From NCBI GenBank assembly GCA_014871385.1, contig CM026431.1, forward strand, positions 10,507,594 through 10,571,593: a stretch of 64,000 bases of DNA. The letters are read 5' to 3'. The first letter of the stretch is position 1. Each line of letters starts with the position of its first letter. Under the pieces are notes generated by a model. The model was not told where the DNA came from. It did no database searches and saw nothing but the letters and a program-made list of their open reading frames with translations. This DNA is from Ceratodon purpureus (Eukaryota; Streptophyta; Bryopsida; Pseudoditrichales; Ditrichaceae). This document shows positions 17,989 through 63,364 of the stretch, piece after piece. The translations under genes and the position numbers were made by a program.

Positions 17989-19669
17989 AGCCACGAAACC
18001 GCGAGGAATAAAGAAAATAGCGAAATCAGAGAAAGCAAGGAATGCACGCACGGACAGAATGCGGGGGACTCGAGAATGGCGAAGGGAGTTTGGGAGTGAG
18101 ACCAAAGTGAAGAACTAAGGGCTCAGACATACGTTTTTGTTCCACAAACATTAGGGTTGGGATTACTTGCTGATTTGAGAGATGGAGAAAAAGGTGACTG
18201 ACCTTGATGGTGGACGTGGTGGAGAGGCTGCGCATTTTCACAGGATTTCGCCTCAATCCTGGGTGCACAATGATGGAAAATTCATGGGTTCTGTGGGAGA
18301 CGCCTCCACATGATTGAGTATTGAAGTAGGTTGTCATGTCCCCTGATCTGGGAAGATCTTCCAGAATCCACTTGGATTTGACAATTTTCAGGTAGTGACA
18401 AGTAGTCACTAAAACTCCCGATTAGTAAGACTTGAGCTCGAAAATTAAACGACTTCGTACAGAGTAATGTCTGTCAAAGAAAAAAAATCCAGTGGTATTA
18501 GATGAAACAGTTTCCATAATCCGAGAACGAAAGGAAATAAACGGGAGGCAATCTTAAACAACTAACGTACAATTAGATGAGTGCATGGTAACAAGCATAT
18601 GAGCAAACAAGAATTCGATTACTGTCGGTTTAGTACATTGCAATTGTAGTGGCATATCCTAAGAAACAAAAGAAAAGACATGGTCTGAAACGATCAAAAA
18701 TGAGTTTAGAAGTACGTTACGGACCGTAATAGCTTCGATTAATATTGCCCGGGGTTTGCAGCAGTGATTTCGAGTAAGTGTATTGCCAAAGGGTTATTGT
18801 GTTGCACCATGAATCTGTTAAGACACAGACATACATAAAGGCTCACCGTATTCAGTATCTGAGATGGACGTCGACTGGAAATTCATGTTTTTATATCCAG
18901 ATTCGAAGAAATTCCAACATCCACGGAGATTAATTACTCACTGTCCTCGGCAGATGGATAGACGGGGACCAATGGCTGCATACCAATTCCATCATACGGA
19001 ATACTATATCATAGATCATGGAAGAGAACGATCCAATGGGGCTACATACGAATGACAGGACGCAGAGGTTTTAGGTATTGTAAACACCATAACTGGAAAA
19101 ATTCCAGAAACTATTAAAATGGAAAGAGATATCGCTACAAAAGGGTGGCAGCACCACGAACGATACACAGAAAGCATATTAGAATGGGACATTCTGATAC
19201 TTGATTATCAAAGTGATCGAAACAGTACCTTCGTTTCGCAGACAGACACACAAATCTCTCCGATCATGGGCTATTAGTAATACCTTCGCACGACAGATAT
19301 GCCCGACATCAGTGCCATATAAAGTCTGTAAAATCAAACGCATACAGATTAATTTGTATAACTTCGAGTGCGGCACAAAGACTCACGTTCGATAACGTTC
19401 TCTGGTAATACAGTAGAGAGGTTAATCAAATATAACTGGATTAATATACACCGAATAATGCATATCGTATAAGGTAACGGTGGTAATTAATGATGGATAC
19501 TGATTCAAACAAGGCGCAATTATGATGACACTTCCGTACTGAGTAATCCGTCTGGTACATTCCAAGAGTTTTGCATCGTACCTGCATAGGCCATGCCGTC
19601 TGCCTTCAGGTGGAACTCCGGTAAGTCTTTTACAGATTCGGACAATAGTAAAATGGAGGCCATGGGCGT
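17989..19669. other. Intergenic, no gene seen
   Basis: From about 18,420 to 19,560 the sequence is AT-rich with no recognisable coding content on either strand. It would fall inside the second CACTA element if that element runs from 15,487 to about 26,900. Confidence 0.35.
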
Positions 19670-45272: not shown

Positions 45273-45489
45273 TTCCATAGTGAATTACGTTTGGAACATT
45301 TTGATTGCCTATGTGGCCTTGTTTGCACATTTCTAATATTTTAATAAATCGTTTTTTCGGCGTATACATGCCTTGGTGGAACATGAAATGGTATTGTTGG
45401 TTTTGTAATGGAATGAAAAATTGTTTTTAAAAAAAAATTAAAAAACTGTATGGCCCATTCACCGGGACTGCCCCTCGTACAAGGGTGCC

Positions 45490-45968
45490 TCCCCCTGAAC
45501 CCGCTCGCGCCCCCCCCCTCTGGAAGCTCGCGCCCCCCCCTTCCAGAAGCTCGCGCCCCCCCTCTGAGAAGCTCGCGCCCCCCCTCTGAGAAGCTCGCGC
45601 CCCCCTTTGCAGTAGGTTGCGCCCCCCCCCTTGAAAAAGCTCGCGCCCCCCCTTGGAGAAGCTCGCGCCCCCCCCCCCCCCCCCCCCCTTGGAGAAGCTC
45701 GCGCTCCACCCTGGAGAAGCTCGCGCCCCCCCCTTGGAGAAGCTCGCGCCCCCCCCCCCCCTCGGAGAAGCTCGCGCCCCCCCCCCCCCCTTGGAGAAGC
45801 TCGCGCCCCCCTGGAGAAGCTCGCGCCCCCCCTGGAGAAGCTCGCGCCCCCCCCTGGAAAAGCTCGCGCCCCCCCCTGGAAAGAGAAGCTCGCGCCCCCC
45901 CACCTGGAGAAACTCGCGCCCCCTGCACACGCTCGTGCCCCCCCGCCTGGAGAAACTCGCGCCCCCCC
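45490..45968 (-). repeat. GC-rich G-run array 4, inverted
   Basis: About twenty units, C-rich on the plus strand. On the minus strand the typical unit is GGCGCGAGCTTCTCCAGGGG with a longer G-run, so it keeps the GGCGCGAGC core but has a different tail from arrays 1-3. It begins about 215 bp after the kinase stop codon and ends at the TATA box upstream of the hAT gene. Proline- and glycine-rich open frames across it are artefacts. Confidence 0.9.
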
Positions 45969-45972
45969 TCAC

Positions 45973-45985
45973 GAGTATAAATGCC
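45973..45985 (+). promoter_or_regulatory. Probable TATA box of the hAT gene
   Basis: GAGTATAAATGCC directly follows GC-rich array 4. It lies about 195 bp before the hAT start codon. A cttgcag acceptor just before 46,144 suggests a short spliced leader. Confidence 0.5.
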
Positions 45986-46179
45986 ACCAACTTAGCCCAA
46001 GCCCAATATCATTTGAAATCATGGCCTCTAGTCCCGGAACTCCTTGTGGGCTCCTTGCTTGAGACTATGTGCATCACATTGGCCTGTGGTTGATGTCTAC
46101 ACATACCATTCTTTTCTCACATGTGTCATACTAACACTTGCAGACAGGAGATCATTGTACTTTTTTAGAGACACGGAGA

Positions 46180-47174
46180 ATGGCAGGTCAACAGCGTCAG
46201 TCGACGGCTGAGTGGGCTCCGTGGTGGACGTTCATTGATAAGGACCATGTGAAATGTGTGTGGTGCAATTTCACCTTTCGTTATAAACGACAAAGAGCTT
46301 TCAAGCACTATGGATGGGGTGAAGGTTTAAGCAAGAGTCATTGTACCAAGGCCCCCGCCGCCGTATTTAGGCGCTTTGCCAATTGTGGTAATGTAATACC
46401 AAAAAGAATGACACATGCGGAGATATACGGCACTGATGGTGGTGATGGCGAGGCACACTTGGCACACTTGGCACCATGTTCTAGCCAGTCTATGCCTGCT
46501 GAGCAATCTACGGAAGTGCCTCAGAGAACGGAGGAGGTCCAAGAGGAGAGGATTTCCCAAGTTCAACCGTCTCAGTCAACTCCGCCTATAAGCAGAGGCG
46601 ATTCATGTACACCAAGATCTATGCGGCAACAAAGTTTTACCGAGGCCTATCAGATTGGGATGCGCAATGAATTGGATGAGAAATGGGCGTCCTATTTTTA
46701 TGAAGCGAATGTGCCTTTCAATGTGGTTAGACATCCATCTTTTATCGCTGCTGTGGAGGCAACATCGAAAGCGGGTTTTGTGTACCGTCCACCAGCATAC
46801 AACGCAATGCGAACCAAGCACATCCAGCCAACAAAGCAGCTTCTCAAGTTGAGAATAGAGGAGAAAACGAAGCAGTGTATTAGCTTGTACGGGGCAACTA
46901 TTTGCTCGGATGGATGGGACAACGTTGTTCATCGGCCGTTGATGAATGTCATGCTTGTGTGTCCAGCATGAGATATATTCCTAGGTTCCATTGATACAAC
47001 GGGGTACAAGAAATCAAAGGCATACATAGCTGGGAAATTGAAAGAGTACATCAAAGAAGTTGGACCGCAGAATGTGGTACAGATTTGCTCCGACAATGCT
47101 AGTGCGATGTTGGGAGCCATGGACCAGGTGGTTGAAGCTTATCCTCACATTTACAAGCAAGGTTGTGCAGCTCA
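46180..47174 (+). pseudogene. hAT transposase, 5' part
   Basis: The ATG at 46,180 (MAGQQRQSTAEW) opens a hAT-superfamily transposase. It begins with a BED-type zinc-binding region (CVWCNFTF, later HYGW and SHC). A polar linker follows, then FNVVRHPSFIAAV and the DUF659 domain (ICSDGWDNVVHRPLMNVML, IDTTGYKKSKAYIAGKL, VVQICSDNASAMLGAM). One in-frame TGA at 46,969-46,971 interrupts DUF659 where family members have a glycine or similar residue. At 47,174 the gene is cut by an LTR retroelement, and it resumes at 63,360. hAT elements are plain cut-and-paste DNA transposons. The left terminal repeat was not identified. Confidence 0.85.
47170..47174 (+). repeat. Target site duplication, left copy (GCTCA)
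   Basis: GCTCA stands immediately before the TG of the 5' LTR. The same five bases follow the 3' LTR at 63,360-63,364. A 5-bp duplication is standard for Ty3/gypsy integrases. Confidence 0.95.
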
Positions 47175-48912
47175 TGTGAGCTGACTTTTTTTGAGAAAAG
47201 TCCCTTTTCAGTAAAAACAGTGTAAATAGGACCAAGTTACCATGTCAATTTGAAATCCATGTAGATAGTGGCTGTAGAAATCTGGTTGAGAGTCAAATGG
47301 ACATAGTGTAGAATTCAGGGGACATGACCCTACCTAGAGACACGACTTGTCAAATTGACTCTACGTACAGGCACACCCTTTAGAAATTAAGGCATAACTA
47401 GGAATTAAGGAAGAAGAAAGAATTACTTCACCACACCACACAACACTGTGTGAGTGATAGTCACATTATGTAAAAAATATAAAAATAGAATTCCATTGTC
47501 TAATTGATTGTCAACTTGACTCTGAGTAGCTCACTGTCTAATTGATTCACAATGCTCTTTGTCAATTTGAACTATAGCTTCGATGCATAGCGTATTAATC
47601 TGCAGAACTGTAGAATCAGAATGGAGAACTGGAGCAAACTAATTACTGTCTAATTGATTTGCAAAGCTTACTGTCAAATTGAAACTACAGATCTGCCGAA
47701 GAGTGAATTTATATGTAGTCTATGAGAGATAGAATGAATAGTTTGATCCAATGGCTACTGTCTAATTGACAATTGAATTCATATTGCTTGCTGCATAATG
47801 TCTAGTTAACACTGGTCAAATGGACAAGATGGTGGTTCGGTATGCATCCATGGGCATGCATACATTGTCAACTTGACTTGCATGGACCATGTCTAATTGA
47901 CACAGTGGAGAGTTGGTGAGAGTTACAGTGAATGTGGTGACTCACACTGGATACTGTCTATTTGAAATCGAAGATATTGATGGAGCAAAGTGAACAGTGG
48001 ATCAGATTGTCTATTTGAACTCAGAACGAAGGAAGAGTTACTGAGTGAATAGAAAATAGAAATTCCAGAAAATAAACACAACAGTTTGTCCAATTGACAA
48101 TTGCATTGTTGTGAATGGGAATTATGGAGAATGAGAGTTCCATGTGAGTACTGGAACAGTGAAGTGAGTATTACTTGATAGTCTTTTAAATTGGATTGGC
48201 CATCTGAAATAGAAGACTGAGAATGACTTAGAGTTTATGGAAGCCAGATTGAGTACATTGATGGATAAAAGTGACATTAATTATTAAGGAGTGATCAGCC
48301 TTAGTGATTATTAGTTCTCATTATAATAAAACTTGAATGTATTCAACTGAGCAATAGTACAGTCATTGTAATTGAGTAATACAATTGAGAAGTATAGTTG
48401 TGATGAATGGTAGAGTTGGAGTATGATTGAATGTGAATGAGTAGACAGTGATTACATGTCTATTTGAAATGCGTTGGATGGGAGGAAAAAGATGAAGACA
48501 AGCAAGGAGTTGCTTGAGATAAGTTAATCTATCATAACATATCCCAAAGCATCATTCATAGGCATAAATAGGTTGAACACTAGATTCTAACCTAGTAATG
48601 AATGAACTTGCATATGCATAATAAATGCATTGTCTAATTGAACTTGGAAGGGAGTGATGGCAATAAACCGAGAGATGGTACTTGTCAATTTGAACTCCCA
48701 TTACCCTTGAACCAATTGAGAGTTTGGATTACTTGGGTTTTGTGTGACTTGGGGTAATTAAAGACATTAGAGTTATAAAGAGATTCTTTTAAGGAAATAC
48801 TTTGCATTCTATACATTCTTTACTTACTACAGTGACCTTTAGTTACGTTAAAAGCTAAACGAAAAGACCTATTCCCATGACTTACCACTATTTGTAAATT
48901 TTACCAATTACA
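47175..48912 (+). repeat. 5' LTR
   Basis: It starts TGTGAGCTGAC, ends CCAATTACA and is 1,738 bp long. It contains about twenty copies of the GTCWANTNGAM motif (for example near 47,242, 47,292, 47,348, 47,504, 47,758, 47,868, 48,087 and 48,680). It matches the 3' LTR at 61,622-63,359 on reading. Confidence 0.95.
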
Positions 48913-48915
48913 TTT

Positions 48916-48934
48916 TGGCGCCGCTGCCGGGGAA
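48916..48934 (+). other. Primer binding site, tRNA-Asp type
   Basis: TGGCGCCGCTGCCGGGGAA starts three bases after the LTR. It is complementary to the 3' end of plant tRNA-Asp, with one mismatch to the usual TGGCGCCGTTGCCGGGGA. This site is typical of Athila-like and related plant Ty3/gypsy elements. Confidence 0.8.
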
Positions 48935-49430
48935 TAGGTTCCGGTTAAGCGGTAGCTAAAAGTGTAGATGAAGTAAAGAATAGAAGATCTTTGTGCTTTA
49001 AGCTAGAAGATACCTCGTGTTTCTTTGAGAATTTAAAATTTCAACTTCTTCTTAAGAAAAACTTCTTAAGCAAGTAGTTGTGTATTCTTTTAAGGACAAA
49101 GAGGAAATCTTTATAATCAGCTTTAACCTTTAAAGGAATCCTTTAAGAAAAGAAAGGGTCATAGTAAAAGTAAAACATAGATTAAGTATTGAATTAATTC
49201 AGAGAAGTGTATGGTAACAAAATATTGTACTATACCATGGGTTAATAAAAGAAACTTTAGACTTTTGAAATGTCTTAAGAGGTGAGTTTATGAATTCTCT
49301 TAAAGGTTGATTGAGTGATAGTAATTAACCTTTCTGAGATTGTGAGTAAGAGGTAGAAGATCGTAATTAGAAGATTGCGATATAGGTTTAGAGTATATGA
49401 GTTTTGATTGATGACAATCAATAGTAAATA

Positions 49431-50232
49431 ATGTATCCATTTCCATGGGAAGTCCAACAAAAGGATATTAATCAATTCTTTGAAGGACCCTTCCTATTTG
49501 CTGCACTTTACCGAGTTTATAGGGGAGCATATTTTGGGCAAGGTTTTCAAATTTGTGGTACACACTCTAAATTTGATTCAAACCTTCAAAATAAATTTGA
49601 CCAACTACCCATTGATATCAAAAGAATAATATTAGCAAAAATTTGGGATAATGGAACAAGGTTTAATGCTTTGATAGTTTTCAAAGGAGAATTATTTTTA
49701 CAAAGCAATTTACATTTTCTATTTGCCCAATATGGGAGATTGAAAAATTTAACTTCACCTATAATCTCTAAAGGTTGTGGAGCATGGAATGGATACAAAT
49801 TAGATACCAAAACTTATATCTTTAAATACGGACCTCAGAAACTAGATAGTCAAGTTTTAATTCCAGATTTTCTATCTAGAGAGTCTGATAAACCAATTTC
49901 AATTGCGTTTGGATTATTATGTCTTTAAAGACATGACAATCGAGAGTGAAACAATTATCGAACAATTAGTCAGATTAAGATGATTGTTGATAATTTATGA
50001 GGGTATACAAAGAAACGAAGAAGCATTGATTCACCTTTTAGCTAAAGAGATAGATCAAATTAGCAAGGAAGGTGAATCAAATTCCGAACAGAACTTCTTA
50101 ATAGAGAGACTGATTAGTGAACATAATTATCCTAGGAATTTTCAAGAGGAAGAGGTTGATGAGATATTTGAAGTAGAACCTTTCACCTTGAATACTTGGA
50201 TAATCTCTTGGTTTGATACCAATAAGAGTTAG
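49431..50232 (+). CDS. Leader reading frames of the retroelement
   Basis: Between the primer site and gag there is a 165-codon frame (49,431-49,928; MYPFPWEVQQKDINQFFEG) and a shorter one (49,984-50,232; acidic). Neither matches a family I know. Some Tat-lineage elements carry an extra frame upstream of gag, so they may be real element parts. The larger one has ordered hydrophobic and aromatic content typical of a folded protein. Confidence 0.4.
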
Positions 50233-50534
50233 TCTTTATTCTAATTGAATGGAATAAAGAAAATGGTAAAATTAGAGGAGGAAAGATTAAGGGAATTAGC
50301 CAAACTTGGGCGACAAAACTACTATAGACAATTCAGAGCACCTGTAAAACAAAACAAGGTTGGGAGAATCATAAAAAAAAAAAACTTTCTTAAGAGAAGT
50401 AGGGAAGTAATAGTAAAAAGAAATAGATAGAGCGAACAACAAAAATAAGTGATCCTTTTTCTTTAAGTAAAATTGGGGATAGAAGATCATTTAGGTCTAA
50501 GCTTCAATGCTTAAAGCCTAAATGGCATTTATCA

Positions 50535-53500
50535 ATGTCTGAAAAGGATAAAGAATTGAGAGAAAAACAAAATATTGCAAGAAATGAACGTTTGAAAAAA
50601 CGGATTGAAAGGAAAGAAAAACAGATCTTAACATTAGTATCTGCCAATCCTGTTTACAATTCAACACCATCCCCAGTACTTAAAGAAGAATCTATTCCCT
50701 CAAATCTTAATACCTCAACTAGCCAAGTTAGTGAAACAATTCAAAATCCACTTTCTATAGAAGAACAACACCAAAGTTCTCTAAAGAATGAGGATTCAGA
50801 ATTACGAGAGGAAGGTTTGAGAAGATCGCATTATTTATGTTGTCACTCACCACCATTTAGGAGGTTAACCTGGGGATCTTCAAGTGAAGTAAACCCACTT
50901 CAAATTAATTCTGAAAAGGGAAAGAAGGTAGAAGAATTAGTCACACCTTCTTCCTCAGAATTTGAGAGTTCTTTGAAGAATCCATTTACTACAGAGGTTG
51001 GAGAACCTTCTAACCTACCTGAATTCTCAACACCAACCCAAATTAATTTTGAAACACCAAAACCTTATCTCGACGAAGCTGTACAAACCTTTGTTACAGG
51101 TATAGAGAGTTGGGTTAATGATATTGCAGATATTACTGAGGTAGAAACCACAACCCCTATTGAAACATACATAAGGGAAATTTCATTAGAAGACAATAGA
51201 AAAGAGTGGAATGATGAGGAAGTAGCTTATGAGGCATCTCTTCCAGAAACATTTCCAACTATACAACCTTTTACCAACCCTTATGAACCATCTAATGATG
51301 AAAGTAATGAGGATTGGGAAGGGATAAATTGTTGGAGATTTTCATCAGGAGATTCCTCTGGGAGTAGTAGTAGTGAGAGTAGTGATACAAGGAGAGAAAC
51401 AAGTGAAGAAGAATTGTTAAGATCTTCTTCTTCACCTCCTTCACGACCTCCTCCCAGACCTCCAACTCCTCATCCTAGACCTCCACCACCCCCACCACCA
51501 CTACCACCTCCACCACAGACTTTACCACCTAATATCATGGCACAACAAAGGATTTTAAACATAGCACCATATCCTATGTACCATGGATATCCAGGGTCTG
51601 ACCCCGATAAACATTTGGAAAGATTTAGAGTGGTTGCACAAGCAAATCAGTTACCTGAACATTTATATTTAAGCACTTTCCCAAGCACATTGCTTGATGA
51701 TGCTCATGAATGGTATGTCCAATTGCTAACCGTACCCACAAGATGGGAAGATTTAAGGAGAGCTTTTCTTGATAGGTTTCGACCTAGATCATTTATACCA
51801 GGGTTAATCGATAGATTTCGAACGATAAGAATGGGTATAAATGAGGGTATAGATTCCTATTATACAAGATTTAATGCTCTTTTAAAGAGATGGACAAATC
51901 ATGGGTTAACTGATCAAGTATTAGCATGTACCTTTGTAGGAGGGGTTTGGCCTGATGAGTTAAGAATTTACTTAAAAGAACGAAACCCCCAAGACATTGC
52001 TAGTGCTTATACACAAGCTAAAACTTGGGAAGAGGCTAGAGTAAATACTGATTTTGCACAATATGCAGAAGTATATCCACCTAGGAGAGAAGGTTATGAT
52101 CATGCTCAAGGCATGGATGCTTATGGCCGTGATCATTATCCTTATTTACCTCCAGCTAGATCACAACTACCAGTTTCGACTTATCCTTCAAATCCCACAG
52201 TCATGAATCCTCAACCTTTAGCAATCAAAGCCCCTACAGATGATATATTAATGAACAACATTACTAAATTAGAGAAAAAATTAAATGAACTATCGGTACA
52301 AATAACTCATGGGAAAGATAAACGTTCAAAACCTACAAACATGCGTACCAATATGTGGTGCACTAATTGTAATGGACATGGACATCTTTCCAATGAGTGT
52401 TCTACTCCGATAGGTGGGGAATTTAGTAATAAACCTAAATGTAGTTTTTGTGGAGGACCTCATGACGTATCTAAATGTTGGAATTTGGGGAAAGTAGTAG
52501 CTGCAGTGAGTTCTAATTTGCAGGCAAACGGGACAAATAATAACAAAGCACCTTATAGTGTAACTTCAAAACGTCCGTTTACTAGACCAAATGTAGGACC
52601 ACCCTACAGACCTGGGGATGGGAGACCAAGGTGGAATGATACTTATAATGCTGCACCTGTATGGAATGGACCGCCTACTAATCCTAATACCCATAGATAT
52701 GGAACTCCTGAGAAAGGAAAACACTTAGTGTGTTATAACTGTCAGGAATTAGGACATATGGCGAGAGATTGTCCAAATCCAAAGAAACAAATTGGGTATA
52801 ATCCTTTATGTGGGAGGTGTAAACAAAGTGGTCATATAGCAAATAATTGTACAGCTCCAGCACCTGTGAAGAGTGTTCAATTCAGTGAAATTGAAAACTC
52901 AAGGAATGTAAATCAAATAACACAATATGAAAGAGATAAACCTCAGGAGGTTTATATAACACGTGCACAAGCCAAAAAGGCTATGGTTGAAAGTGATCAA
53001 CATAGCAGCTCTGATAGTGATTATAGAAGTAGTAGAGTGAGAAAAAACAACACACCTTCGAAAGTAGTTAAGGAGAAGGATGTTATAAAATCTAAACCAA
53101 TATTTCCCTTAATACCTCCAAACATTCCTATAAATAGTGAGAAAACAATACCATTAGAAGAACCTAAGGAGAAGGATAAGGGTAAACAACCAGTTGAAGA
53201 AACTACAGTATTACCTCAAGATTTACCAAATAATTTTGCTAACTTGCCTAGTACTTCAAATTCATTACCTACGTTTTATAGACCACCTAAAAAGAAATTA
53301 AAAGAAACACCAACCATTCCTAAGAAAAGGAAGTATAATCGTACAATGAAATTGTCAGAGGGAATGAATCCATATGATATCTTAACAAATATGGATAAAA
53401 TCCAACCTGACATTTCTTTGAGGCAATTGTTAGCAATAGCACCTAAATGTAGAGGTGAACTAAGTTCTTCGTTGGTTAGAAAAAGGAGTAAAATCGTAGA

Positions 53501-56500
53501 TGTGCATGATATATCCTTGGACCCTGGAGCACCTACTGTGGATGTAATCATAGATGGTTCTCTAATTGAAGGAGTCCAAGTAGATAGTGGTTCTAGTGTC
53601 AACTTAATGAATGTTGACACTATGGAAGAACTAGGATTAACTCATATGACTTCCACTCCTATTATCTTAAGAATGGCAGATCAAAGTCGAGTAGTACCAT
53701 TGGGTATTTTGAGAGGAATAGTTACAACTATAGGAGGACTTAACTTTAAGATTAATTATATAATCTTTAAAGTGAGTGAATCCATATCAACATACCCAAT
53801 ATTACTAGGTCGTCCATGGCTTAAATCTGCTAGAGCTAAAGATGATTGGGGAAAGGGAACATTAACTATAAAAGCAAAAGGGAAACGGGTTGTATTACCA
53901 ATGTTTCCAGTCAAATATCATGGTGAGACTCAAGAAGAAGACACAGATGTCACTTCTGAAGCCTCATATGATTCAAATAGCGAAAGTACTAAAGTAGTAG
54001 AACAGGAGAAAATGCCTGAGTTTAGATGTTTAGGGACTGGAGAATATTCCTTTCTGAATAACGAAGTAGATTCAGATGATGCTATTCTAGCATGGGAAAA
54101 TTCGCCAGTACTTAATGTAACCGCCGAAATTGAGTCGGAATTAGAACCTCAATATTTGAGTGATTCTGAAGAATTAATGGAAAACATGTCTCACATAAAA
54201 GGTAGCAATATAAATCCTGTTAAAAGCACTTGCATTGATATGAATTTGGGAACTCCAGAGGAGCCCAAAAACATAAGAATTTATGAAGGACTAAATCCAA
54301 ATGAATATGAACAATGGTTTAAATTCTTTAAAGAATGTAAAGATGCATTTGCATGGACTTATAAGGACCTTAAAGGAATACCTCCAGAAGTCTGTCAACA
54401 TAGAATTATTTTAGAACCTAATACAAAACCGGTAAGACAAAGACAATATCGTATGAACCCAAAATATTCTCTCATGGTTAAAGAGGAAATAGATAAACTA
54501 CTAGAATGTAATTTTATATATCCAGTACCTTATAGTGAGTGGGTATCTCCAATTGTTGTGGTGCCTAAGAAGAACGGGAAGCTAAGGATTTGTCAGGATT
54601 TCAGAAAATTAAATAGTGTTACTAAAAAAGATTATTTCCCTTTACCCTTCACGGATGCAATCCTTGATGGTGTAGCAGGACATGAATGTTATTCTTTTTT
54701 AGATGGATTTTCTGGTTATAATCAAGTACAAATCGCCCCGGAAGATAAACCTTTAACAACATTTACAACTGATTGGGGAACCTTTGCTTATAACGTCATG
54801 CCCTTTGGATTGTGCAATGCACCAGCTACTTTCCAGAGAGCAATGACAACAGCTTTTCAGGAATATTTAAGAAAATTTATTGAAATTTTCTTAGATGATT
54901 TTTGTGTCTTTAGTCCTAAAGCTGAACACCATAAATGTTTAAAGAAATGTTTTGAACAATGTGAAAAATATGGTATTTCAATAAACGCAGCCAAGTCTGA
55001 ATTCGCTGTACCTTGTGGACGATTAGTGGGTCATATAGTTTCAAAAGAAGGTATAGGTGTTGATCCAGATAAAGTAGCTGCTATCAAAAAATTAGAAATA
55101 CCTAAACATATGACAGAACTTAAAGGATTTTTAGGAGCTTCTGGATATTATAGAAGATTTATCTACTTTTATGCAGAAGTAGCAGCTCCTTTAACGCATC
55201 TAACAAAACAAACCGATACTCCTGGTGTTTGGACAGAAGAGTGCACAAAAGCATTTAATAAACTTAAGAAACGGCTTAGTAATGCTCCCATTCTAATACC
55301 ACCAGATTGGGAGAAACCGTTTGAAGTTTATGTAGATGCATCAAATTATGCTATTGGAAGTGTTCTCAGTCAAAAAGACGCAAAAGGTCATGATCGACCT
55401 ATATATTTTTCTAGTAGACAATTAAGTGCTGCTGAGAAAAATTACTCTGTAACGGAGAGAGAAGGGTTAGGAATGATATATTCGGTCCAAAAATATAGAC
55501 ATTATTTATTAGGTTATAAGTTCACTTTTCATGTAGATCATGATGCACTTAAATATATGGTTAATAAACCACAATTGAGTGGGAGAATAGCTAGATGGGT
55601 ATTGTTACTTCAAGATTTTGATTTTACGGTTAATGTAAGGCCTGGCAAAAAACATGCCAATGCCGATTTCTTATCACGGATTAGTAAGGAAGTGAATCCA
55701 GAATCCATAGATGATAGTTTTCCAGATGCGCATATTTTTCAAGTGGATATCATTCCAGCAGAATATGCTGATGTTATTCATTACTTGAGTACCAATACCT
55801 TCCCTCAAGATTATACAGATAAACAAAAACAAAAATTAATATTTAAATCTCAACCATATACATTAATTGCAAAAGTTCTATATAAAAGGGGTAAAGACGG
55901 ACTTTTACGGAGATGTATTAATCCAAGTGAGGTACCATTAATTCTTAAAGGTTGTCATGACGCTGCATGTGGCGGTCATTTTGCCGGAATGGTGACTGCA
56001 CATAAAGCGTTACAATCCGGATATTGCTGGCCAACACTCTTTGGGGATGCACATAGATATACTAAAAAATGTGATCCATGCCAAAGAGTTGGAAAACCTA
56101 CACCTTCAAAGGCAATGCCTTTAAATCCAATTTTAGCTCAAACGCCGTTTGAGAAATGGGGAATTGATTTTGTAGGACCTATAAAACCACCTAGTAGACA
56201 TGGTCGAAATAGATACATATTAATTGCAACTGAATATGTAACTAAATGGGCAGAAGCTCAACCTACGAAAACCGATGATGCTAAAACTGTTGCCAAATTT
56301 TTATATGAAAATATTATTACAAGATTTGGATGTCCAAAAGAATTAATTGGGACGCAAGAGTACCAGATGCATTATGGGCTTATCGATGTGCATTTAAAGT
56401 ATCTACAAAATTTACTCCATTTCAATTAGTTTACGGTCAAGAAGCTATCTTACCAATTGAAATGGAACTCCCGTCTTTAAGAATTGCATTAGATGAACGA

Positions 56501-56836
56501 TTAGGAGATGAAGAATCTTTAAGACATAGGCTTTATATGCTTGAAAAATTAGATGAAACGAGAGCCCAAGCATATCTTAATAATGAAGCTATTCAAAAAC
56601 ATCGTAAAACATATTATGATAGCAAATTGGAACCCAAAGTTTTGAATCCTAATGATTTAGTATTATTATATGATAGCCGATTTCAAAAATTTCCAGGAAA
56701 ATTTAGAATGCGTTGGTTTGGACCATATCGGGTATTAAAATCGTATCCCAATGGTTCAATTGAACTTCAAGATTTTGCAGGAAAAATTCATGCCACAAGA
56801 TATAACGGGTTTCGTTTGAAACCATATATAACTTGA
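50535..56836 (+). mobile_element. gag-pol region of the Ty3/gypsy element
   Basis: Parts recognised, with rough positions: a lysine/glutamate-rich start and a proline-rich linker (to 51,530); gag (about 51,540-52,080, with HLERFRVVAQAN and FLDRFRPRSFIPG); CCHC knuckles (about 52,360-52,860, including CYNCQELGHMARDC and CGRCKQSGHIANNC); protease with VDSGSS (about 53,580); reverse transcriptase (about 54,400-55,150, active site FLDDF); RNase H (about 55,310-55,700, with VYVDAS); and integrase with its HHCC zinc region (about 55,940-56,100) and core. Gag and pol share one frame, as in several plant lineages. The region looks broken by about one break. The 11-bp motif found elsewhere in the element is not seen here. 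Confidence 0.9.
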
Positions 56837-56853
56837 GGACAAGTTCTAGATTT

Positions 56854-56863
56854 AAGAGGGGGG
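56854..56863 (+). other. Internal polypurine tract after pol
   Basis: AAGAGGGGGGCA lies just after the end of the pol region. It is nearly the same as the tract before the 3' LTR (AAAGAGGGGGGCTA). A second polypurine tract between pol and the env-position frame is known from Athila-group elements. Confidence 0.65.
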
Positions 56864-58453
56864 CAGTAAGTATAAAAATTCAAAAATTTTAAAACTGTCC
56901 TACTTAAGTACTAAAAACTGTGAAATTTTGAGGAAATTAAAAAACCAGCGATCTAAAAAACTGAGTTTACAAAGAACAAGTTCAACAAATTTAAATTCTG
57001 AACTTGAGAATTTTTCGAAGCAAATGGAAATTACTAATTGACAAGTAGACACTAACTAAAATGATGAGTAAGTAGTAATGATCAGAAAATACAATTAGTG
57101 AGTGGAAAGACGGCTGATATGATAACATGAATTGGGGGCTGTGATCATGATGACCACGTTGCATGGAAATGAGTGTAAAATCCCACTAACTGTCAAATAG
57201 ACAAAAGGGGAATGGTCGAGTCGAGTAGACCACATCATCTTCTCCAAATGGGAAAACAGAACCTCAAAACAAACACATTTTCTTGAGAGGCACCGGCTGC
57301 GAGTCTGAGAGAAGTGGACGAGGTTTTGTCAAGTAGACAGAGCGCTCCTGTGTGAGTGATCAGGGTTAGGAGTGGAGAAAGATAGTGGTCAAGTGGACAC
57401 GGAAGGAGTCACATTGTGAGGAGATCAGAATGAAGATAGAGTGAGATACCGAGAAGACTGAGAGGAAAAGCAGTTCAGTTGAGGGTCACAATTTGAGTAA
57501 CTGATGTGTGAGGGATACAGAGAGACCCAAGAGAAAGGAAGGAGCAAAACCGAGTGAGTATTGTTGTAATCACAGCAGGTGTGTGTGAGAGAATTGAGCA
57601 ATTGAAAGGGGAGCGAGGTGCGTTTCAGTTACACATTGAAGGTGAGTTGTTGTCAACTTTGCATACTGTTTTGTCAATTGGACAACCTGATTAGCAGTTG
57701 CAGATATCTTAGGTTAAGAAAACACGATGTTGTCGAAGGAAGTGTTGCGATGTTCTCGATGTTAGAAGTAAGTTGATATGATACCTTAGGTCAACTGGAC
57801 CCAGAGTTTCTGATCATTGTGAGTGTCAATTGGAAACAGTGCGACAGAAGGGGAAGACGAAGCATTGCATCTTGAGAAGCATATCTCTCACAGTCAAGTT
57901 GACACATTGCGGGTGAGTTTCATTGCATCCATTCTGTTGTGTCAAGTTGATTACATGTTGTCTTCGCATCTTCTTCTTGCATGTCCAATTGAACTGTTAC
58001 TTGAAAAAATGAGACTGTCCAGTAGACAAGGATGAAGGAATCACAAAACACAACTTGCCGAGAGAAAGAAAGTGTAAGAAACAAGGAACGAAACTGAAAC
58101 ATGGTGCTGTGATGTATGTATGATGATAGTAATGTAGGAAAATATTACAAACTGATTGCCGAGAGAAAGGGAGGAGAAGAACAGAAAGAATGAAGCTTAA
58201 TATTTTCAATGGAATGTATGCTTAGATGATTGTGAAGTAGAAAATTAGGGATAGAAGTGATTGCCGAGTGGAAGAAGTGTTTTATAGTTTTAAAAGTAAG
58301 GAAATAACAAAGATAAAATTCCCGAGAGTTCAAGTAGACAGTGCCGAGAGTTTCAGGGAGAGTCAATGCCGAGAAAAATTTCAATTAGACGAAGTAAAAA
58401 CTGAAGCAAACTAACTGCCGAGTGTGTAGTCTAATAGACAGAAAGAAGGAACC
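56864..58453 (+). other. Noncoding spacer of the retroelement, motif-rich
   Basis: About 1.6 kb without coding content. It holds roughly fifteen copies of the GTCWANTNGAC motif, for example at 57,192, 57,328, 57,388 and 57,673. Many here have the GTCAAGTAGAC or GTCAAGTGGAC form. Confidence 0.7.
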
Positions 58454-61400
58454 ATGGTAAACGAAGGTCAAGTTGACAGAGAAGGCAGAGGAACTGATCA
58501 AGGGAGGCCCCAACCCGAAGTTGCAGGATCGGTCAAATTGACAAGGCCAATTGCTCGGCCCAAGGTGAAGGCAATGAAGAACAAGAAGTCCAAGAAGCCT
58601 GTGCTTGCGGAGGCAATGCAACAGGACCTGTCAAGTGGACCAAGACGTCAAATTGAACACTTGGAATTGAAGAAGATTGACCGGGAGGCATGGCCGCAGT
58701 TTGAAGCCAACCGGGAAAACTTTGTGAAGGCAGGACTTTGGGACTTCGTAATGGTTGTCTTCGAGGAGCAGGATGATGGGAGGATTAATCAATTCCTGAC
58801 TTCTTCGGAGTATGGCTCAAGAGGAATAGCTGTGGTGGATGGAAGAAGCGTACCTTTCAACTCGACCACAATTTCCAAGATGCTGAAGCTGCACCAAGGG
58901 GACAGGTTGTTAACGGAGGAAGTGGGAGGAATCTCCGAGGAAGATTTAGCCAACGTCTTTGACATAGCTGCCAAGACACAGAGTGGCTACAAGTTGGCGA
59001 ATGCGAAAGAGACGTGGAAGGAGTGGTTGTTATTCTTCAATCAGAGAATCATGCTGGCGGAGAAGGGGCCGCTGATCATGTCGAAGGAAGGAGTAGCAGC
59101 CGCGATTTACGGGTGGAATGGTGTCAAATTGAGTTGGGGAAACATTCTATTTGACAACATCAAGGTGGAGATTAGCAAGAAGCATACTAGATATCCCATC
59201 ACACTCTACAGTGCGATTTACCTCTCAGAGCTGACCAAGCCATCAAGTCAAGTGGATTCAGGTGTGTCAACTGGACCGGTGAGAGTGCTTCCAGACTTGC
59301 TCAATTTGACAAGGGATCCAGAGCCGAGAGCTTCGACTCCATCATCCTCGAGGGCCAACAAAGTAAAGAAGAGGAGGGTGGATGACTCCTTACCTCAATG
59401 TCTATTTGAACTGAACCCGAGGTTGGGAAGAGGAGCAAGATCAGCCAGTCAAGTAGACAATCGTGAACCTGCAAGGCAACCCGCGTTGCAGCTCACGCAG
59501 ACTGAGGTGGCTGCACAGCTCAAGGATGCACTAGTGAGAGAAACGCATCTACGGTTGAAGATCAAGGAATTGGAGCGTACAGTGTTCAACTTGACCACTG
59601 AGAACAACCTAGCTGTGGAAGATATACGAAGGCTCAATACACAGTTGGCTAACTTAGCGGAATTGAATGAGGAATTGACCAAGCCTACCGTTGCAGACAT
59701 TGAGATCGACACTGGGAAGTCGTTCCAAGAGTTGTACAACGATGAGAAGCAGCACCGCATCGAACTTCAACGTCAATTTGACCAACTGAATGATGCCAAG
59801 ATCGCCATTTCCAAGCTCTGCACCGAGGAGAGGAATGAGAAGAAAAAGCTCAAGGCAGAATTGGAAAGCTTGAAGAAAAATCCGATGGTGAAGGTTGTCA
59901 ACCCCTCGGATTATGCGACTCTGAAGACCAATAACGAATTGTACCACCGTACTATCGAGATTGGTAAGAAGCAGTTGCAGGAGGCCCGGATGGAGAACAG
60001 GGCGTTGAGAGGAGAACTTTGGAAGGTCGACTTGACATCACCACCAAGTTATTCCCTTTTCCATGCATACGAGTTGCAAAGGGATAACTGGTTGGCTATG
60101 GTGGGGAAAGACAGGGGATGTCTATTGGACAGCGATGATTTTGATGCGGTATGGGCAGCGTCTAGTAGACATGCTAATCAGCAGAATCTCATCTGTGAGA
60201 TGATAGCAAGAGGCGATGTCCAGTTGACCGATCACAAGAAGTTGTTCCTTCCAATAGGACACTTGGGAGCAAGAGTGGTGTTATACTACACCACTCTGGA
60301 AGAGCAGCTACAGAAGAGACGTCAACTTGACATGTCGGTGGAGAGTCACAGACTGGTGAAGATGGGCGATTCGAGTAGACAGGTGGTGGATGTTGCGGAG
60401 AAGGTGCCAAGTGAGGAGCTCAAGGAGTGGACAGCAACTTTGGAGGGGCTGCTCAAGGAGTTCGATGACCGTGATAACATCCTTGTCAAGTTGTCATGTG
60501 TGCTGGAGAGGGAGACTTATGCTCAAAGGGGCGAGTTGACCACAGCACACTATGTCTACGGGATGCACAAGGTCAGGCAGCAGATCATGGACACTTTGAG
60601 GGAGTTGAAGAAGGATCACCTATTCATCACTAGCCATGATCTTCAAGTCGAGTTGACCTTGCCTCCACCCACATACAAGGCACCGGGGTGGCTGTCTATT
60701 CGAACACCGGTTACAGGATCCCCCTTGACAGTCAAGTACTTGGGGAATTATGCGAGTCTATTTGACAATGAAGCGGTTTTTCCGCTACCCACGTGGACTG
60801 CGATTGAGTGGCTGCTGGAGGATTACGGACTGTCTCGAAGGGAGGAGCGGTCATGGGATTTGATCTACAAGGAGATAGTAAATGTCAATTGGACCGATGC
60901 GGCTCCTGAGGCTGTGAGGACAAATGGACATTTCTGCGACTGTAGAAGAAGATTCAAGTGGGCTCCAGACAGTCCAATTGACTCGGTGGAGTATAATTGG
61001 CCATTGATCCCTGGTCAATTTGACACGGCATTGAATTGTGCCACGGCCTATGAGGGCTTCTGGCAGATTCACCACACACACACCGACCCTGTGTGTTTCC
61101 GAGCAGCAATCTTCTCCAAGTTTTTGGCTCGGATTTGCAGGGACTTCAAGGTGGTGGTGAATGTGAACCGCTACGATGAGAGGAGGCCGGAGTTTTTGAT
61201 CAATCTCAAGCTCCGTTACCACTCAAGTCGTTGGGGGAGGATGCTGGAAGTCATGGCCATGACTCATTTTCTTTACGGGTCTAATGGATGCTTCATCAAC
61301 GAATTCAGGGGAACTCGGAAGATAGCCATTGACAACTGGCTAACCTTCCAGCATTCCAATAACACTGAATTACTTCGGAAGGATGATGAAGTAAGGAGGG

Positions 61401-61608
61401 AAGTGTCTAAGCTCATGGTACAGCGGATCCAGAAGGAGAGCCATTACGGTGACCAGCACCGTAATCACCACCGACGTCACCATGTCTAATAGACAGTAGC
61501 TGCAGGGTGTGTGCAAGTCAATCTTTGTATATAATTTTTGAGTCTAGTTGACATAGTATCTAGTGGACAATGCTGTAAATGTGAAACTTGCCGCGAGTCA
61601 AGTAGACA
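57192..61608 (+). repeat. Dispersed 11-bp near-palindrome array
   Basis: The motif is GTC-W-A-N-T-N-GAC with tolerated changes at the ends. I count by eye about 45 good copies here, plus about 20 in each LTR. Examples are GTCAAATAGAC (57,192), GTCAAGTTGAC (58,467), GTCAAATTGAC (58,532), GTCAACTTGAC (60,321) and GTCAAGTAGAC (near 61,598). It continues from the spacer straight through the extra reading frame without regard to codon phase. Confidence 0.85.
58454..61489 (+). CDS. Extra env-position reading frame of the retroelement
   Basis: The ATG at 58,454 (context accATGG) opens 1,011 codons. The N-terminus is basic (RPKVKAMKNKKSKKPVL, nuclear-localisation-like). Residues about 75-260 (WPQFEANRENFVKAGLWDF, SRGIAVVDGRSVPFN, WNGVKLSWGNILFD) resemble the putative plant transposon protein domain found with Athila-type elements. 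Residues about 345-480 form a long coiled coil. The second half (IEWLLEDYGLSRREERSWD and around) is unfamiliar, and the end is His/Arg-rich. No signal peptide or membrane span is visible, so an envelope role is not supported. The DNA carries about thirty copies of the 11-bp motif in all three phases. A DNA- or RNA-binding role is possible but unproven. Confidence 0.75.
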   Translation: MVNEGQVDREGRGTDQGRPQPEVAGSVKLTRPIARPKVKAMKNKKSKKPVLAEAMQQDLSSGPRRQIEHLELKKIDREAWPQFEANRENFVKAGLWDFVMVVFEEQDDGRINQFLTSSEYGSRGIAVVDGRSVPFNSTTISKMLKLHQGDRLLTEEVGGISEEDLANVFDIAAKTQSGYKLANAKETWKEWLLFFNQRIMLAEKGPLIMSKEGVAAAIYGWNGVKLSWGNILFDNIKVEISKKHTRYPITLYSAIYLSELTKPSSQVDSGVSTGPVRVLPDLLNLTRDPEPRASTPSSSRANKVKKRRVDDSLPQCLFELNPRLGRGARSASQVDNREPARQPALQLTQTEVAAQLKDALVRETHLRLKIKELERTVFNLTTENNLAVEDIRRLNTQLANLAELNEELTKPTVADIEIDTGKSFQELYNDEKQHRIELQRQFDQLNDAKIAISKLCTEERNEKKKLKAELESLKKNPMVKVVNPSDYATLKTNNELYHRTIEIGKKQLQEARMENRALRGELWKVDLTSPPSYSLFHAYELQRDNWLAMVGKDRGCLLDSDDFDAVWAASSRHANQQNLICEMIARGDVQLTDHKKLFLPIGHLGARVVLYYTTLEEQLQKRRQLDMSVESHRLVKMGDSSRQVVDVAEKVPSEELKEWTATLEGLLKEFDDRDNILVKLSCVLERETYAQRGELTTAHYVYGMHKVRQQIMDTLRELKKDHLFITSHDLQVELTLPPPTYKAPGWLSIRTPVTGSPLTVKYLGNYASLFDNEAVFPLPTWTAIEWLLEDYGLSRREERSWDLIYKEIVNVNWTDAAPEAVRTNGHFCDCRRRFKWAPDSPIDSVEYNWPLIPGQFDTALNCATAYEGFWQIHHTHTDPVCFRAAIFSKFLARICRDFKVVVNVNRYDERRPEFLINLKLRYHSSRWGRMLEVMAMTHFLYGSNGCFINEFRGTRKIAIDNWLTFQHSNNTELLRKDDEVRREVSKLMVQRIQKESHYGDQHRNHHRRHHV

Positions 61609-61621
61609 AAGAGGGGGGCTA
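61608..61621 (+). other. 3' polypurine tract
   Basis: AAAGAGGGGGGCTA stands directly before the 3' LTR. It is the expected plus-strand primer site for the element. Confidence 0.85.
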
Positions 61622-63359
61622 TGTGAGCTGACTTTTTTTGAGAAAAGTCCCTTTTCAGTAAAAACAGTGTAAATAGGACCAAGTTACCATGTCAATTTGA
61701 AATCCATGTAGATAGTGGCTGTAGAAATCTGGTTGAGAGTCAAATGGACATAGTGTAGAATTCAGGGGACATGACCCTACCTAGAGACACGACTTGTCAA
61801 ATTGACTCTACGTACAGGCACACCCTTTAGAAATTAAGGCATAACTAGGAATTAAGGAAGAAGAAAGAATTACTTCACCACACCACACAACACTGTGTGA
61901 GTGATAGTCACATTATGTAAAAAATATAAAAATAGAATTCCATTGTCTAATTGATTGTCAACTTGACTCTGAGTAGCTCACTGTCTAATTGATTCACAAT
62001 GCTCTTTGTCAATTTGAACTATAGCTTCGATGCATAGCGTATTAATCTGCAGAACTGTAGAATCAGAATGGAGAACTGGAGCAAACTAATTACTGTCTAA
62101 TTGATTTGCAAAGCTTACTGTCAAATTGAAACTACAGATCTGCCGAAGAGTGAATTTATATGTAGTCTATGAGAGATAGAATGAATAGTTTGATCCAATG
62201 GCTACTGTCTAATTGACAATTGAATTCATATTGCTTGCTGCATAATGTCTAGTTAACACTGGTCAAATGGACAAGATGGTGGTTCGGTATGCATCCATGG
62301 GCATGCATACATTGTCAACTTGACTTGCATGGACCATGTCTAATTGACACAGTGGAGAGTTGGTGAGAGTTACAGTGAATGTGGTGACTCACACTGGATA
62401 CTGTCTATTTGAAATCGAAGATATTGATGGAGCAAAGTGAACAGTGGATCAGATTGTCTATTTGAACTCAGAACGAAGGAAGAGTTACTGAGTGAATAGA
62501 AAATAGAAATTCCAGAAAATAAACACAACAGTTTGTCCAATTGACAATTGCATTGTTGTGAATGGGAATTATGGAGAATGAGAGTTCCATGTGAGTACTG
62601 GAACAGTGAAGTGAGTATTACTTGATAGTCTTTTAAATTGGATTGGCCATCTGAAATAGAAGACTGAGAATGACTTAGAGTTTATGGAAGCCAGATTGAG
62701 TACATTGATGGATAAAAGTGACATTAATTATTAAGGAGTGATCAGCCTTAGTGATTATTAGTTCTCATTATAATAAAACTTGAATGTATTCAACTGAGCA
62801 ATAGTACAGTCATTGTAATTGAGTAATACAATTGAGAAGTATAGTTGTGATGAATGGTAGAGTTGGAGTATGATTGAATGTGAATGAGTAGACAGTGATT
62901 ACATGTCTATTTGAAATGCGTTGGATGGGAGGAAAAAGATGAAGACAAGCAAGGAGTTGCTTGAGATAAGTTAATCTATCATAACATATCCCAAAGCATC
63001 ATTCATAGGCATAAATAGGTTGAACACTAGATTCTAACCTAGTAATGAATGAACTTGCATATGCATAATAAATGCATTGTCTAATTGAACTTGGAAGGGA
63101 GTGATGGCAATAAACCGAGAGATGGTACTTGTCAATTTGAACTCCCATTACCCTTGAACCAATTGAGAGTTTGGATTACTTGGGTTTTGTGTGACTTGGG
63201 GTAATTAAAGACATTAGAGTTATAAAGAGATTCTTTTAAGGAAATACTTTGCATTCTATACATTCTTTACTTACTACAGTGACCTTTAGTTACGTTAAAA
63301 GCTAAACGAAAAGACCTATTCCCATGACTTACCACTATTTGTAAATTTTACCAATTACA
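61622..63359 (+). repeat. 3' LTR
   Basis: It has the same length (1,738 bp) and the same sequence on reading as the 5' LTR. It starts TGTGAGC and ends TTACA. Confidence 0.95.
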
Positions 63360-63364
63360 GCTCA
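63360..63364 (+). repeat. Target site duplication, right copy (GCTCA)
   Basis: It matches 47,170-47,174. Without one copy the flanks read GCA GCT CAC ATC ATG GAC, continuing the hAT frame. Confidence 0.95.

Follow-up and report, generated by a model that had tools for sequence, protein, structure and literature searches.

Proteins that bind many short copies of a motif in the termini of their own element are known from En/Spm, a DNA transposon with subterminal repeats only, whose element-encoded TnpA acts in this way and affects methylation. The array described here lies in a long terminal repeat (LTR) retrotransposon of the moss Ceratodon purpureus, within a window of 64,000 nucleotides (assembly GCA_014871385.1, contig CM026431.1, positions 10,507,594 to 10,571,593 of the forward strand), in whose own numbering all coordinates are given. 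Two described systems invite comparison. VANDAL21 and VANDAL6 carry motifs that are read by VANC proteins and arranged as same-orientation, non-coding tandem repeats, related families having other motifs (PMC5735166, PMC10398659), and for VANC21 it is the density of the motif, more than any single motif, that marks the target (PMC5735166). Sireviruses carry palindromic repeated motifs in up to 32 copies per element, with a CGG-CCG core in all except Tnd-1; 117 of 127 LTR copies lie in the upper half of the LTR, upstream of the TATA box, and the start of env holds one and four extra copies in two elements (PMC2829016).

The window holds one nearly complete 16.2-kb Ty3/gypsy element (47175-63359), in the order LTR, leader, gag-pol, 1.6-kb spacer, a 1,011-amino-acid open reading frame (ORF3), polypurine tract and LTR, and its LTRs and 3' third are filled with an 11-bp near-palindromic motif that is under selection as a DNA word. 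As in the Sireviruses, the motif is element-specific and palindromic and is numerous both in the LTR and in the linker that precedes an additional ORF, env-like in that case. However, Sireviruses are Ty1/copia elements and this is a Ty3/gypsy element, the core is GTC-N5-GAC instead of CGG-CCG, one LTR and the 3' third together hold 68 sites as scored by a matrix, 30 of them in an ORF and in all frames, and constraint at synonymous sites is demonstrated for the motif here. The likeness to VANDAL and VANC lies in a dense, family-specific array of a short motif together with a candidate element-encoded reader; in contrast to VANDAL, a Mutator-like DNA transposon, the carrier is an LTR element, and instead of tandem non-coding repeats the sites are dispersed, palindromic and flanked by non-homologous sequence, 30 of the 68 lying in ORF3. 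No VANC-like protein was recognised in the element by domain and PDB comparisons, and no Ty3/gypsy counterpart of the array was recognised among the papers listed by literature searches, mainly of openly accessible work. The initial annotation of this stretch had held that nothing like the array was standard for such an element, which agrees with the literature as far as Ty3/gypsy is concerned but passes over the palindromic motifs published for the Ty1/copia Sireviruses (PMC2829016).

The motif as a DNA word

The consensus of the motif is GTC[A/T]ANT[T/G]GA[C/A], with a 13-mer form TGTCAANTTGACA. Columns 1-3, 5, 7, 9 and 10 are almost invariant, columns 4, 6 and 8 are degenerate, and column 11 has C at 60% and A at 28% of sites. 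The pattern GTCWANTNGAM gives 97 strand-hits in the window where 2.13 are expected (100 shuffles, maximum 9), and GTCWANTNGAC gives 70 hits against 1.01 from shuffles (maximum 6); chance or composition as the source of the array is ruled out by these shuffles. Counted as distinct positions, the GAM form occurs 16 times in each LTR, once in gag-pol, 12 times in the spacer, 22 times in ORF3, twice in 61490-61621 and not at all in the leader, with two occurrences in the 47.2-kb 5' flank and none in the 641-bp 3' flank. A refined matrix finds 20 sites in the LTR, 15 in the spacer, 30 in ORF3, three after ORF3, none in the leader and three in gag-pol, the last being the background level (3.1 in first-order Markov sequence; 1-4 per 8 kb in five scanned pieces of flank). 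Together with the 20 sites of the second LTR, the 68 matrix sites amount to about 88 per element.

These counts bear out most of what the initial annotation had reported. Its estimate of about 20 motifs per LTR is that of the matrix, and its figure of about 45 between 57,192 and 61,608 compares with 48 matrix sites from 57,040 on, or 36 by the strict pattern; enrichment over shuffled sequence and over gag-pol is likewise found (97 against 2.13, with gag-pol at background). The absence of a full match from 48,913-56,836 holds for the leader but not for gag-pol, which has one GAM match at 55409 on the minus strand, and the statement that there was none elsewhere in the window is incorrect, given two GAM matches at 19668 and 28070.

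The two half-sites keep an exact distance. GTC-N5-GAC forms 33 pairs in the LTR, spacer and ORF3, where no other spacing between 0 and 15 gives more than three, and in a scan of all 3-mer pairs it reaches a log10 P of -52.8 in the 3' third of the window element and -15 in the LTR. The mean distance between sites is 76 bp in the LTR and 97 bp in the 3' third and their placement is random, no clear helical phasing or regular spacing having been found where these were looked for. Imperfect sites are balanced in orientation in the spacer (3:3) and in ORF3 (7:7), and a T precedes 18 of the 20 LTR sites.

Conservation was assessed by comparing the window with seven diverged copies, or five for the LTR, one of them partial; these copies are related by descent, so the pooled counts of changes are not independent events, and divergence itself varies with the alignment (for the spacer of one copy, L011, 35/1,296 against 80/1,318 outside window-defined sites). 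With sites defined in the window, motif positions are less changed than the rest in all 14 comparisons (Fisher P 4.3e-6 to 0.044), and with sites defined in the copy this is so in 13 of 14. Pooled changes in the spacer are 11/816 in the core, 18/306 in the degenerate columns and 362/2,769 in the flanks, the corresponding figures being 43/1,595, 57/600 and 505/5,564 in ORF3 and 14/752, 7/282 and 164/2,626 in the LTR. None of 5,000 random sets of 15 sites in the spacer reaches the observed conservation.

The sites within ORF3 separate selection on DNA from selection on protein. The 30 matrix sites fall in all three codon frames (0/1/2 = 11/12/7) and specify differing peptides, and shuffling synonymous codons with protein and codon usage kept (n=2,000) yields a mean of 1.28 strict sites and a maximum of 7, against 22 observed, which rules out codon bias as their source. 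Synonymous change in the motif core is 16/341 (0.047) against 1,110/3,881 (0.286) elsewhere in ORF3, six-fold lower, and non-synonymous change is 27/1,254 against 550/14,031. The motif is a DNA word rather than a peptide, and selection acts on this word, including at synonymous sites.

Distribution of the motif and the family

A genome search with ORF3 gives at least 46 matches (45 of 186 candidates scored), two of which are pieces of one place; 39 are full length and 30 of these 39 are free of stops. In the 362-Mb genome the strict pattern has 4,076 + 4,116 hits, against 2,035 + 1,976 for the reversed pattern. Over the initial 3.01 Mb of contig C1, 82 of the 100 strand-hits listed fall in four clusters, all of them copies of this element's family (L007, L008, L009 and L011), and the remaining 18, spread over 12 places, fall short of the 33 that the reversed-pattern control predicts; two of those 12 places (in L015) were compared with the element, and no similarity was found. 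On the evidence of these 3.01 Mb and the whole-genome totals, the motif is concentrated in this element's family.

Several observations concern the copies themselves. Contig C6, which makes up 110.5 Mb of the genome, bears eight of the 15 stop-bearing ORF3 matches; its size is compatible with a U or V sex chromosome of Ceratodon purpureus, each of which exceeds 100 Mb (PMC8000587). A copy on contig C8 (L024:1636-3626) lacks about 1 kb within ORF3 and has kept spacer and LTR sites. In four copies (L007, L008, L011 and L014) synonymous divergence (pS) from the window is 0.04-0.06 in gag-pol (50535-56300) and 0.12-0.18 in ORF3 (58454-61489); given that gag-pol is so much less diverged in the same copies, the 3' third apparently has a different, older history, and recombination between subfamilies likely lies behind this gap.

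Architecture of the element and its surroundings

The 5' LTR (47175-48912) and the 3' LTR (61622-63359) are identical, with no mismatch across 1,738 bp, and carry the same 20 matrix sites at offsets 70-1510. The target-site duplication GCTCA can be read from the sequence on the left (47170-47174) and on the right (63360-63364), and together with the identical LTRs it marks the insertion as young. The features between these limits lie on the plus strand. Immediately 3' of the 5' LTR is a primer-binding-site-like stretch (48916-48933), which we take to be of the tRNA-Asp type, within the motif-free leader (48913-50534). Two TATAAA words occur in the LTR, at offsets 304 and 1600; all 20 motif sites lie upstream of the one at offset 1600, which is presumably the TATA box.

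The gag-pol region (50535-56836) encodes gag, zinc knuckles, protease, reverse transcriptase (RT), RNase H and integrase. A domain scan returns Retrotrans_gag, RVT_1, RT_RNaseH and Integrase_H2C2 in that order, with protease matches only below the curated cut-off, and the integrase zinc-binding domain (1796-1853) follows RT (1343-1500), the reverse of the Ty1/copia order in which integrase precedes RT. The LTRs, the target duplication and this order of domains place the element in Ty3/gypsy. No chromodomain was found in the domain scan, the comparison with Athila/Tat-like elements being one of domain content only. Among the matches listed (120 of 1,190), a pol relative in Riccia sorocarpa (P0041) has 53% identity over 36%. 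In the window copy the gag-pol frame is disrupted within the integrase part; L007 and L011 have about 175 additional bases there.

Downstream follow the non-coding spacer (56837-58453), ORF3 (58454-61489), whose product is coiled-coil-like in the middle, and a stretch (61490-61621) with three matrix sites and the polypurine tract at about 61608-61619. Spacer, ORF3 and the unique 3' region (U3) of the 3' LTR form one continuous motif domain (57040-63141), a layout that the genomic RNA would share. A second polypurine-like stretch (AAGAGGGGGGCAG), similar to the tract before the 3' LTR, lies just 3' of pol at 56854-56866, and a second short repeat, TGCCGAG, has six copies in the spacer at 58056-58423 against 0.04 expected. 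Observed over expected CpG is 0.23 in the LTR, 0.44 in gag-pol, 0.61 in ORF3 and 0.84 in the flank, and methylation-driven loss of CpG may have hit the LTR hardest. The sequence hosting the insertion, presumably hAT-like, is itself interrupted, and an ORF in it (46138-46971) matches DUF659 weakly (E 0.0018, under the curated cut-off). Beside the element, at 45341-46062, lies a proline/arginine-rich tandem repeat region with several frames open on both strands.

What may read the motif

The sites are probably a platform to which a dimeric protein binds, with a role in self-recognition, transcription or anti-silencing, a reading that draws on the form and placement of the motif. The dyad symmetry, the exact spacing, the tolerance at the central, fourth and eighth base and the 10:10 orientation of imperfect sites across spacer and ORF3 suggest that a protein dimer binds the DNA in double-stranded form. 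Such a sequence-specific protein, itself dyad-symmetric, would occupy the sites as a dimer, and given that these are packed over the LTR U3 and the whole 3' third, it would load on this family and scarcely elsewhere. The LTR sites all precede the TATAAA at offset 1600, a position that would suit a transcriptional regulator; once bound, the protein would most likely boost transcription from the LTR, and perhaps that of ORF3 too, and keep the chromatin of the element open. Since about 88 sites exceed an ordinary enhancer and recall the density marking of VANC21, a platform for self-recognition is favoured.

Several observations weigh against this reading. All 12 imperfect sites of the LTR have GTC on the left and the degenerate half on the right, unlike a pure dyad, the degenerate columns there are scarcely freer than the core (7/282 against 14/752 changed), and the third core column is changed in 9%, equal to the flanks. 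The one comparison that departs from the general conservation is the copy-defined L011 spacer, with 12/121 changed against 0.052 outside; the same pair has 0/99 changed when the sites are defined in the window, and gap placement is the suspected cause. ORF3 has no recognisable DNA-binding domain in domain and PDB comparisons, and its AlphaFold2 model is unusable, with a mean predicted local distance difference test score (pLDDT) of 31. Finally, six sister loci with ORF3 homologues have no GTCWANTNGAM and only 0-2 GTC-N5-GAC, and a 3-mer pair scan of these loci gives a best log10 P of -7.3, save for G-runs in L027 (-10.8), with no comparable conserved array.

The sister loci derive from a pol relative, P0007 (36 of 3,484 candidates scored), which led to L022 and L023, with related pol and an ORF3 34-35% identical, and from a search with the L022 ORF3 that gave at least 64 matches (43 of 354 candidates scored). 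The six loci (L022, L023 and L025-L028), which each span about 8 kb with the end of pol, ORF3 and part of the LTR side, represent fewer than six families: L022 groups with L025 (94%) and L023 with L026 and L027 (91%), whereas the ORF3 of L028 stands apart but its LTR side is close to that of L026. A swap of the motif for CTTAAG in these sisters was considered but is not claimed. CTTAAG occurs 6, 13, 3, 10, 8 and 12 times on their LTR side where about 1.2 are expected, an enrichment of about 3-10x (in L025 the three copies are within the shuffle range, maximum 5), yet it is no better conserved than its flanks (26/319 against 104/1,036 changed, P 0.38). For other words the results are 35/524 against 175/1,691 (P 0.013) for ACTTAA and P 0.096 for GCATGC, and no clear replacement code was found in the six loci. 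Counted in other copies and related families, as the initial annotation proposed, the motif is kept in seven copies of the family and absent from the six sister loci.

Given that the sister ORF3 homologues are without the motif, ORF3 is older than the motif. Outside motif positions it is a conserved protein (ratio of non-synonymous to synonymous divergence, pN/pS, about 0.14). In its C-terminal part, residues at motif codons are less often identical to the sisters than the others are (25/68 against 177/367 for L022, 26/68 against 169/367 for L023); for full-length ORF3 the figures are 34/116 against 307/852 and 27/82 against 214/628, the latter pair showing no real difference. From these comparisons, the word seems to have been overlaid on an already existing ORF3 protein. 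Protein searches with ORF3 return one relative, 98% identical, and none in viral and bacterial or archaeal contigs, where records of the same genome were perhaps left out. Pfam and NCBIfam scans are without a match and PDB matches are at chance level or weak coiled-coil, these weak coiled-coil matches being all that an attempt to derive a function from sequence or fold obtained.

Whether the reader is ORF3 or another product of the element on the one hand, or a host factor on the other, is about evenly balanced. In favour of ORF3 are its conservation and its position, encoded within the same block of motifs; the lack of a known DNA-binding domain and the sister ORF3s without arrays speak against it. 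It is with some doubt that we suggest that the ORF3 protein, or a complex containing it, might read the dyad code over U3, spacer and its own coding sequence, and so mark the element for expression against silencing. The initial proposal of a factor recognising the element's own DNA is supported by the concentration in the family, the dyad symmetry and the selection at DNA level; a reader encoded by the element itself, one of the options in that proposal, is a candidate.

The alternative that a host transcription factor binds the sites as an enhancer, collected for tissue- or stress-related transcription with neither an element-encoded reader nor anti-silencing, is a serious one, although we would not expect it to hold. 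Every LTR site is upstream of the TATAAA at offset 1600, ORF3 predates the motif, and the repeated motifs of Sireviruses, the nearest parallel, are treated by their authors as regulatory, stress-related boxes (PMC2829016). However, such an enhancer would need neither 30 sites in a coding frame nor some 88 per element, and the 3.01 Mb sampled show no enrichment of the motif outside the family. With family clusters taking 82 of 100 hits there, and the 18 outside below the 33 expected, the possibility that the motif is equally common in unrelated sequence, which the initial annotation had named as refuting its view, is not what was found. The sites might instead act in RNA, by binding an RNA-binding protein or in dimerisation or packaging. 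This would suit the one continuous block that spacer, ORF3 and U3 sites form in the genomic RNA and the shared orientation of the imperfect LTR sites (12/12), but it is improbable, given a dyad-symmetric consensus, a 10:10 balance of imperfect sites in spacer and ORF3 as for double-stranded DNA, and an 11-nt palindrome with one central base, which should scarcely be able to fold on itself.

The initial annotation had regarded binding of host WRKY factors to the TTGAC halves, as in GTCTANTAGAC-type sites, as the main alternative, and TTGAC is indeed present in at least one half of 44 of the 68 sites. The other 24 sites are nevertheless at least as well conserved (core changes 10/776 against 44/1,635 in spacer and ORF3), and isolated TTGAC/GTCAA is not enriched, with 0 against 4.1 expected in the LTR, 2 against 4.6 in the spacer and 7 against 6.6 in ORF3, the two in the spacer not being conserved (11/48 changed). 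Without an excess of isolated W-boxes, the array is not accounted for by WRKY half-sites, and a W-box cluster is very unlikely. Hardly credible at all is an array without function, in which tandem duplication, composition bias or peptide repeats have spread the motif. One divergent 112-bp duplication in the LTR does hold two sites twice, but the only motif-bearing tandem array found is a 12-bp unit, present twice in the LTR; with the exception of these two cases, spread in tandem is ruled out for most sites. Moreover, site flanks match each other at 6.44 of 24 positions against 6.28 for random positions, and the sites occur in every codon frame and are under strong constraint.

The array shows, in numbers, a transposon gene in which a DNA word is kept by selection, and no such array was found in the literature searched for this class of element. 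With a single LTR probe and a single candidate protein, self-identification by a retrotransposon and its escape from silencing can be tested directly. If ORF3 does read the motif, VANC would have a counterpart in a retrotransposon, with a DNA-binding code that overlies a gene and bends its codons and residues.

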